IMG/VR virus record: IMGVR_UViG_3300007609_000005
Coordinates: 1 to 64,000 of that record
Origin: a virus
Length of the DNA stretch: 64,000 bases
Direction: 5' to 3' (one strand)
A model generated the notes under the pieces. It did no database searches, was not told where the DNA came from, and worked only from the letters and a program-made list of their open reading frames with translations. Below, in pieces: positions 512-10,264 of this stretch. Numbering within the stretch: position 1 is the stretch's first letter; the number at the start of each line of letters is the position of its first letter. Position numbers and translations under genes: made by a program.

Positions 512-961
512 ATGAAAGTGAAAACAGTACTACTTGATTTTGATGGTGTTATGGTTAAAAACCAACCTTGGAAAGTTATCCAAAGAGAAAGTGATGGGTT
601 TTACAGTTTTGACAAGAGTGCATTAAAACACCTTAAGCAAATACTAAATGAAACCAGAGCAATGATAACACTGATAACAACACACAAAACCAAATATACT
701 GATGAACAATGGGAAGAGATATTTAGAAGACGAGGAATTCAATGTAGAATAAAAAAGGCAAAAGAATTCGATTCAAGAATCGATGAAGTCGAAAATTGGT
801 ATAAAACAAGACCAACCGATCAATTTGTGATATTGGATGATGATAAGTCATTGAATGACCTAAGAAGTGAAATAAAAGAAAGGTTTGTTCTGATTGAATC
901 AGGAATCGGATTAACAAAAGAAAAAACAGAATTAGCAATAAAAATATTAAACGAAAAATGA
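512..961 (+). CDS. HAD-superfamily phosphatase of the RNA-repair (SAK-like) type
   Basis: A 149-residue protein opening with VLLDFDGVM, the HAD motif I with nucleophile and acid/base aspartates near residues 9 and 11. A later FVILDDD supplies the acidic motif near residue 110. Its small size and simple cap resemble HAD domains found with Swiss-Army-knife RNA repair proteins, which remove phosphates from RNA ends, but the substrate is inferred. It is translationally coupled to GlnRS, whose ATG overlaps its stop (958-961). An ATG at 502 in another frame opens only an 11-codon frame and was not chosen. Confidence 0.7.
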   Translation: MKVKTVLLDFDGVMVKNQPWKVIQRESDGFYSFDKSALKHLKQILNETRAMITLITTHKTKYTDEQWEEIFRRRGIQCRIKKAKEFDSRIDEVENWYKTRPTDQFVILDDDKSLNDLRSEIKERFVLIESGIGLTKEKTELAIKILNEK

Positions 962-2540: not shown

Positions 2541-2747
2541 AATGAGAGGTGGAAGAGATGGTATCGCTGGCAACAGAGGAACTTCATGACTGCCAAACCT
2601 AACGTGGGAGATTTAACCAATCGTTTGTACCACGGAAGCAGCAACTAAAACAGACCTAGTGTGTCGGTTTCACTATGATGGTCAGGTATAGGCAAAGATA
2701 AATGATACCTTAAAACAGAATCATGGGTAAGCTCACCACCTCTCATT
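2541..2747 (+). ncRNA. rnpB: Candidate minimal bacterial-type RNase P RNA
   Basis: The ends form a perfect 12-bp helix (P1: 2541-2552 with 2736-2747). P2 is GGTATC (2560-2565) with GATACC (2704-2709). The conserved GAGGAA (2576-2581) leads into P4, in which ACTTCATGA (2581-2589) pairs with TCATGGGT (2721-2728) leaving one bulged U at 2583, like the invariant bulged U of P4. ACAGAA (2715-2720) stands directly before the P4 3' strand as in bacterial RNase P. GCAAAGATAAAT (2692-2703) resembles the conserved GCAAGGCCAAAUA segment, and GCAGCAAC..AAACAGACC (2638-2656) resembles the GUGCAACAGA..AAACCGCC segment. Inner hairpins are CGTGG/CCACG (2603-2634) and GACCTAGTG/CACTA..GGTC (2653-2683). At 207 nt it is far shorter than the usual 350-400 nt. 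No clear P3, P12 or P15-P18 is visible. A tmRNA was considered and rejected. Confidence 0.75.
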
Positions 2748-10144: not shown

Positions 10145-10176
10145 AAAAAAACCCTGTCAGTTTCCTGACAGGGTTT
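10145..10176 (-). terminator. Intrinsic terminator of the AsnRS attenuator
   Basis: On the minus strand AAACCCTGTCAG pairs with CTGACAGGGTTT around a GAAA tetraloop in a perfect 12-bp stem, followed by seven T. It lies 28 nt before the AsnRS start. It could also end the transcript of the gene at 10276-10731. Confidence 0.9.
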
Positions 10177-10204
10177 GCTTAATTTTTAGGCAATAATAAT
10201 CCAG

Positions 10205-10252
10205 TCAGGGTTTCCTGTTATGATTATTATTATTTATTGATAATGATTTCAT
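10205..10252 (-). CDS. Leader peptide of AsnRS, 15 aa with 5 Asn
   Basis: The frame encodes MKSLSINNNNHNRKP then TGA. Four consecutive AAT codons and one AAC make five Asn of 15. The ATG is 4 nt after an exact -7 element, so the leader peptide mRNA would be leaderless. Together with the following overlapping hairpins and the downstream asparaginyl-tRNA synthetase, it reads as an attenuation leader peptide that senses charged tRNA-Asn. Confidence 0.85.
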   Translation of the reverse strand: MKSLSINNNNHNRKP

Positions 10253-10256
10253 TTTA

Positions 10257-10264
10257 CAAATATA
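10257..10264 (-). promoter_or_regulatory. -7 promoter element TATATTTG for the AsnRS leader
   Basis: An exact TAnnTTTG on the minus strand, just after the stop of the upstream gene and 4 nt before the leader-peptide ATG. Confidence 0.7.

Follow-up and report, generated by a model that had tools for sequence, protein, structure and literature searches.

The element described here occupies positions 10145-10264 of a stretch of viral DNA, referred to as the window, that comprises bases 1-64000 of the 132,459-base IMG/VR virus record IMGVR_UViG_3300007609_000005. It lies on the minus strand in front of a gene for asparaginyl-tRNA synthetase (AsnRS). A preliminary description had reported a promoter, an Asn-rich leader peptide, a terminator and the synthetase gene at this place, and all four could be read directly from the sequence (Table 1). 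The downstream gene indeed encodes AsnRS, since its product scores above the cut-off for TIGR00457 asnS (392.6 bits, cut-off 342.6); it also matches PF00152 with 203.8 bits. Four nucleotides (nt) separate the -7 promoter element TATATTTG from the ATG of the leader open reading frame (ORF), 28 bases link the leader to the terminator hairpin, and 31 bases separate the hairpin, which runs into seven T, from the AsnRS ORF. The predicted transcript start lies 0-1 nt 5' of the leader ATG in the window phage and in LR745206.1, a Bacteroidetes phage of 634,780 bases, alike, and the Asn leader mRNA is predicted to be almost leaderless. Upstream, a gene for 151 amino acids (10731-10276) ends at the promoter.

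Table 1. Features of the Asn leader element and of the companion Gln and Ile leaders (window coordinates unless stated otherwise).
Feature	Position	Strand	Basis or remark
-7 promoter element TATATTTG, Bacteroidota-type	10264-10257	minus	sequence
Leader ORF MKSLSINNNNHNRKP, 15 codons	10252-10205 (ATG at 10252)	minus	sequence
Regulatory codons, four AAT and one AAC	10234-10223 (AAT), 10219-10217 (AAC)	minus	five Asn among 15 codons
Protector (1:2) hairpin	10232-10222 with 10201-10191	minus	minimum-energy fold without ribosome
Antiterminator 5' arm CCTGACTGG	10209-10201	minus	pairing energy and shuffles
Antiterminator 3' arm	10172-10164	minus	overlaps terminator 5' arm and loop
Intrinsic terminator, 12-bp stem 10176-10165/10160-10149, GAAA loop, T7	10176-10145	minus	sequence, folding
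AsnRS, controlled gene, 388 amino acids	10117-8951	minus	PF00152, TIGR00457
Gln leader MSQTQTHIQQLQQQFDTKG	377-436	plus	ORF scan
Gln attenuator terminator	462-491	plus	terminator scan
GlnRS, 3' of the Gln attenuator	958-2526	plus	TIGR00440 glnS, 612 bits (cut-off 425.8)
Ile leader MRSTCIIIIHRLTPWIFQW and terminator	L016 15428-15369 and 15338-15312; record ~97,427-97,311	minus	outside the window

Alternative folds of the Asn leader and the position of the ribosome

Three helices can form in the leader transcript. The Asn codons had been proposed to pair with 10201-10192, and we find AATAATAATC (10231-10222) paired with GATTATTATT at exactly this place, with a G-U pair that lengthens the helix to 10232/10191. 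This protector hairpin sequesters the Asn codons, and the antiterminator 5' arm falls within it. The terminator was recovered as described, as a 12-bp GAAA-capped stem at 10176-10149 followed by T7. An antiterminator exists as well, although the coordinates first given for it (10208-10198 with 10175-10165) were off by 1-3 nt. The best pairing joins CCTGAC(T)GG at 10209-10201 with CC(T)GTCAGG at 10172-10164, that is 8 bp flanking one T-T mismatch, and the leader stop codon TGA (10207-10205) lies inside its 5' arm. Structure prediction, which the preliminary description had suggested as a check, yielded a folding energy with z = -6.7, and none of 200 shuffles was equally low. In the minimum-energy fold, the Asn codons are paired with the segment 3' of the stop codon and the terminator stands separate. 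The antiterminator 5' arm has a pairing energy of -13.9 kcal/mol with the terminator 5' arm of its own element, compared to a mean of -7.5 for terminators of other families, and 0 of 300 shuffles were as low.

The effect of a translating ribosome was simulated by masked folding, in which the transcript was cut just 5' of the terminator 3' arm and its 5' part was masked as by a ribosome. An unmasked or barely masked transcript folds into the protector hairpin (-14.9 kcal/mol). When the mask ends between 10226 and 10211, the antiterminator becomes the minimum-energy fold (-11.9 kcal/mol), and when it extends past 10208 the antiterminator weakens and then disappears. The first four Asn codons in the A site place the end of the mask at about 10221-10212, within this permissive window. 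All five Asn codons are permissive for footprints from A-site +9 to +15 nt, and the first four at +17. The stop codon is permissive at no footprint tested; with the ribosome there, neither the protector hairpin nor the antiterminator forms. Masked folding hence gives the behavior that an antiterminator requires, in that it forms while the ribosome occupies the regulatory codons and is absent once the ribosome has reached the stop codon. The element combines the hallmarks of a classic attenuator, an Asn-rich leader, a terminator without a later promoter and an antiterminator sharing the terminator 5' arm.

The anatomy of the element, its conservation, the match to its target, the specificity of its pairing and the logic of ribosome positions are all visible in the sequence. 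On these grounds it is very probably a ribosome-mediated transcription attenuator, encoded by the phage, that ties the synthesis of AsnRS to the supply of charged tRNA-Asn. Attenuation had been proposed before, and the proposal came through every computational test tried (a diverged homolog, masked folding, companion leaders and the search for a promoter past the terminator, one of the refuting conditions named with the proposal). We infer an active promoter, a translated leader and both termination and read-through, with loss of charged tRNA during infection as the physiological signal. The transcript would begin at, or just 5' of, the leader ATG. With ample Asn-tRNA, the ribosome would pass the Asn codons to the stop codon and cover the antiterminator 5' arm, so that the terminator forms and no AsnRS is made. 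With scarce Asn-tRNA, the ribosome would stall on the AAT run, the protector hairpin would open and CCTGACTGG would be freed to pair with the emerging terminator 5' arm, allowing RNA polymerase to read into AsnRS. A leader left untranslated should fold into the protector hairpin, with termination as the outcome. ARAGORN found one tRNA-Met as the only tRNA gene of the window and one tRNA in the whole 132-kb record; the phage AsnRS therefore presumably charges the host tRNA-Asn.

One may ask whether the transcript instead binds tRNA directly, in a T-box-like manner, or is bound by the synthetase itself, the leader ORF being incidental. T-boxes in Firmicutes control synthetase genes by a similar terminator/antiterminator logic that senses tRNA charging, but they bind the tRNA directly and without a leader peptide. 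The permissive window of the Asn leader, in contrast, follows the ribosome position codon by codon. Furthermore, the Rfam T-box model had no hit in the window that reached gathering score and, near the leader, none even with E relaxed to 5; other leader families stayed below gathering as well (His_leader 22.7 bits vs 49, Phe_leader 17.7 vs 55). We therefore consider direct binding extremely unlikely and retain the ribosome-mediated attenuator. Rfam matches to PyrR, trpB and His_leader that fell short of gathering were discarded, since the terminator hairpin probably accounts for them. An Rfam scan of 140 kb of relative phages returned tRNA and one DUF805b RNA only.

Conservation of the Asn leader and companion leaders in the same phage

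A diverged copy of the element is present in LR745206.1, whose AsnRS is 59% identical to that of the window. Directly before this gene, TTG-N20-TATATTTG is followed by the leader MKTMTINNRNRLTDII and a terminator. The stem sequences differ between the two phages (CCCATCAGAT/ATCTGATGGG against CCCTGTCAG/CTGACAGGG), and despite these changes LR745206.1 retains the protector, antiterminator and terminator helices. Its TGA stop also lies within the antiterminator arm, and masked folding switches at the corresponding place. In all cases of this phage group that could be followed (LR745206.1, the IMG/VR sequences G008, G003 and G010, and the window record) AsnRS lies downstream of an Asn-containing leader; a homologous AsnRS in L021 was left out, as it lies near a contig end and was not judged. 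A DNA-pattern scan of IMG/VR for the Asn leader gave one match, in an unrelated phage (L019), which we regard as chance.

The preliminary description had pointed to an independent leader in front of glutaminyl-tRNA synthetase (GlnRS) in the same phage. This leader is real, and a third one precedes isoleucyl-tRNA synthetase (IleRS) outside the window (record 97271-95058, behind MRSTCIIIIHRLTPWIFQW). When the 132-kb record was scanned for short ORFs that lie ahead of a terminator and contain four or more identical residues within a stretch of 7, three ORFs were returned, those before AsnRS, GlnRS and IleRS; 29 of 30 dinucleotide shuffles contained none. The Gln antiterminator pairs with its own terminator at -16.6 kcal/mol, and 0 of 36 terminators of other families were as good. 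In IMG/VR relatives, leaders such as MRTTTQYQQQQQINPTD and MKNLTLQQQQQMIKLD are followed by a terminator, tRNA-Gln genes and GlnRS; a related Ile leader, MNFNTIIIIRYSIPWSIPIG, precedes IleRS in LR745206.1. The MAFFT alignment of the Gln leaders was too gapped at the stems for per-column covariation, and permutations of own versus other terminators were used instead.

These results bear on the alternative that the hairpin is the terminator of the upstream 151-amino acid gene only and the Asn-rich ORF an accident of AT-rich sequence. That gene does end at the promoter, Asn codons are frequent in this AT-rich genome, and the terminator may well also halt read-through from it. However, AsnRS would then need a promoter of its own past 10145, and no TAnnTTTG was found between the terminator and AsnRS. 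Leader and helices are kept in LR745206.1, where the upstream neighbor is a tRNA-Arg gene, matched leaders also stand before GlnRS, IleRS, valyl- and leucyl-tRNA synthetase (ValRS, LeuRS) and tRNA clusters, and the shuffles are nearly devoid of such ORFs. A terminator of the upstream gene alone is thus very improbable, and an attenuator of AsnRS remains our reading of the locus.

Some further observations concern the surroundings of these leaders. A 149-amino acid ORF (512-961, plus strand) lies between the Gln attenuator and GlnRS and would share the same control. Elsewhere, at L032 765-897, a Gln6 leader with a terminator precedes four tRNA-Gln genes; since the AsnRS of this phage is only 38% identical, the device may extend beyond the close phage group. 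Beyond GlnRS, the window contains a structured RNA of about 190 nt (2551-2737, plus strand) behind a TATATTTG box and closed by an inverted repeat. It matches Rfam RNaseP_arch below gathering (26.7 bits, E 4e-6), keeps AGAGGAA and ACAGAA-type conserved blocks, and is 83% identical in L006 (5037-5219) and 79% in LR745206.1 (502157-502272). This RNA may be a phage-encoded RNase P RNA.

Leaders before tRNA clusters and synthetase genes in related phages

We extended the analysis to the whole of LR745206.1, large parts of LR756502.1, G008 and G003, and the window's own record. Among terminators directly before tRNA genes in these five phages, 26 of 27 are preceded by a leader ORF. The leaders of tRNA clusters match their targets (His/Lys/Phe/Trp; Ser/Arg; Glu/Tyr; Ile/Gly; Pro/Asp; Gln); an SSRSRSS leader, for instance, spells the Ser and Arg of the targets that follow, and a mixed Asn/Leu/Met/Thr/Val/Ile/Arg leader precedes a mixed tRNA array. 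Synthetase genes show the same correspondence, with LLLPL before LeuRS, VVVNV and VVVV before ValRS, IIII before IleRS, FNFFF before a PheS-like ligase and Asp-containing leaders before a non-discriminating aspartyl-tRNA synthetase. The design recurs before GlnRS and IleRS of the window phage, and in related huge Bacteroidetes phages it stands in front of many synthetases and almost every tRNA cluster. To speak of a second attenuator, as was done before, is too narrow: attenuation is supported, and the Asn element is one of a genome-wide set.

The match between leaders and targets was assessed by permuting targets among the leaders within each phage. In LR745206.1, the true assignment was reached in 0 of 100,000 permutations; it was equaled, never bettered, by 3 of 200,000 samples in LR756502.1 and by 1 of 200,000 in G008, and it was the best of 720 in G003 and the best of 6 in the window phage, with the caveat that these are related phages and that we compiled the target sets ourselves from tRNA and synthetase lists. 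An antiterminator test restricted to 14 nt on each side of the stop codon failed (17,623 of 20,000 permutations reached the true value), because in long multi-amino-acid leaders the arm lies within the ORF, just past the target codons. Widening the search to the whole leader resolved this failure. Leaders pair with their own terminator 5' arm at a mean of -12.8 kcal/mol and with permuted terminators at -8.2 (best -9.7), and 0 of 20,000 permutations reached the true value. Across 46 leaders, 306 of 359 target codons are permissive for the antiterminator, where within-leader codon shuffling predicts 236±7 (0/20,000), a result that does not depend on the footprint chosen between +9 and +17. Only 2 of the 46 leaders still allow the antiterminator when a ribosome occupies the stop codon.

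Could the leaders rather be sequence-specific arrest peptides or functional micro-proteins than sensors of codon charging? Short motifs are indeed common to some of them (IIII...PW before IleRS, LHTYK before a gene resembling histidyl-tRNA synthetase (HisRS)), and a few leaders show little repetition. On the contrary, leader sequences are wholly different between targets and track the target amino acid, mixed leaders track mixed tRNA arrays, and an HFHFHF leader stands before a HisRS-like and PheS-like gene pair. A peptide-specific function is for these reasons very unlikely. We hold it instead to be probable, with somewhat less certainty than for the Asn element itself, that huge Bacteroidetes phages possess a genome-wide tRNA-charging network, in which almost every tRNA cluster and many synthetases have an attenuator and the leader peptide spells the targets. 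Its leaders would be specific for a single amino acid (Asn, Gln, Ile, Val, Leu), bispecific (HFHFHF) or directed to a whole mixed array. If so, each tRNA or synthetase of the phage is produced only at times when the charged tRNA in question is running low for phage translation.

Several points weigh against these conclusions. The Asn antiterminator, short and with one mismatch, is weaker than the terminator, so that it has to prevail by kinetics, which is also the case in known attenuators. A TTG at -33 is missing from the window promoter, of which only the -7 box is present. The Asn leader has one close homolog only, in LR745206.1. The Ace Lake phages with a more distant AsnRS (L023) have a terminator and a leader containing 8 Asn codons, but their antiterminator lacks specificity, as 21 of the 43 other terminators are equally good partners, and L023 was not counted as a full copy. 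Finally, leaders of related phages are not fully independent, and some aminoacyl-tRNA synthetase genes of these phages have no visible leader.

Promoters of Bacteroidota follow the consensus TTG-N18-22-TAnnTTTG. This full consensus occurs within 170 nt upstream of 18 of the 46 leaders, compared to 2.5% of random stretches, and the -7 box alone upstream of 29 of 46, compared to 13% of random 170-nt stretches. The closest cellular AsnRS sequences retained in the search are all from Bacteroidota. Matched leaders were absent before 80 cellular AsnRS genes and likewise before GlnRS and IleRS in 27 Bacteroidota genomes; the versions of these three genes carried by the likely hosts thus showed no device of the kind recognized here by sequence. 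A run of Ile codons ahead of one cellular IleRS (L233) does not follow the reading frame of the thymidylate synthase-like gene that contains it and was rejected as chance.

Three side observations arose from the leader collection. Matches to the NCBIfam entry 'PheS-related mystery ligase SrmL' lie behind Phe-rich leaders (G008 415861-416958, LR745206.1 614897-613821), which suggests that the function of these phage genes is tied to phenylalanine. The conserved leaders MRALHTYKITIDLG (LR745206.1, ~345,100) and MKTLHTYKNVIDWM (LR756502.1, ~377,700), upstream of a 211-amino acid HisRS-like fragment, have no codon run and a strong antiterminator (-18.7 and -14.2). A recurrent TTTAATATATAA motif, distinct from TAnnTTTG, is found 10-20 nt before the start codons of many leaders (e.g., L013 ~1533-1545) and may represent a class of phage promoters or else an A/T-rich feature for ribosome binding.

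Relation to known attenuation systems and implications for huge phages

The trp, his and pheST leaders of Proteobacteria are well-known cases of ribosome-mediated attenuation of amino acid and synthetase operons. The phage elements share with them a leader ORF with regulatory codons, mutually exclusive protector, antiterminator and terminator helices, and a stop codon placed such that the terminating ribosome covers the antiterminator arm. In contrast to the classic systems, they are encoded by phages, use Bacteroidota promoters, are nearly leaderless in the Asn case, control AsnRS, GlnRS, many other synthetases and tRNA gene clusters, and in some leaders carry up to seven regulatory amino acids. 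Such attenuation is classical in bacteria, and the comparative surveys of Lyubetsky and those of Lopatovskaya and colleagues are among the works cited in PMC4833913. Single genomes of huge phages of the Mahaphage clade encode as many as 15 synthetases and 67 tRNAs, and phages over 634 kb have predicted Bacteroidetes hosts (Al-Shayeb et al., 2020, PMC7162821). That study describes the same kind of tRNA arrays, synthetases and predicted hosts as seen here; it makes no mention of leader peptides or attenuation and does not address the control of these genes. A jumbo-phage review does not mention attenuation either. In the open-access papers searched in full text, no case of phage-encoded leader-peptide attenuation came up, though a subscription paper could be missed. 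The mechanism is known; its viral encoding, its use for tRNA arrays, the multi-amino-acid leaders and the genome-wide scope appear to be new.

The network would offer a concrete and testable explanation for the presence of dozens of tRNA and synthetase genes in huge phages. These appear to be made on demand, per amino acid, as the charged tRNA runs out during infection. This would imply that transcription and translation in the Bacteroidota hosts are coupled tightly enough for leader ribosomes to steer RNA polymerase. Since the leaders would name the amino acids that limit each phage, these limits may be readable from sequence alone.
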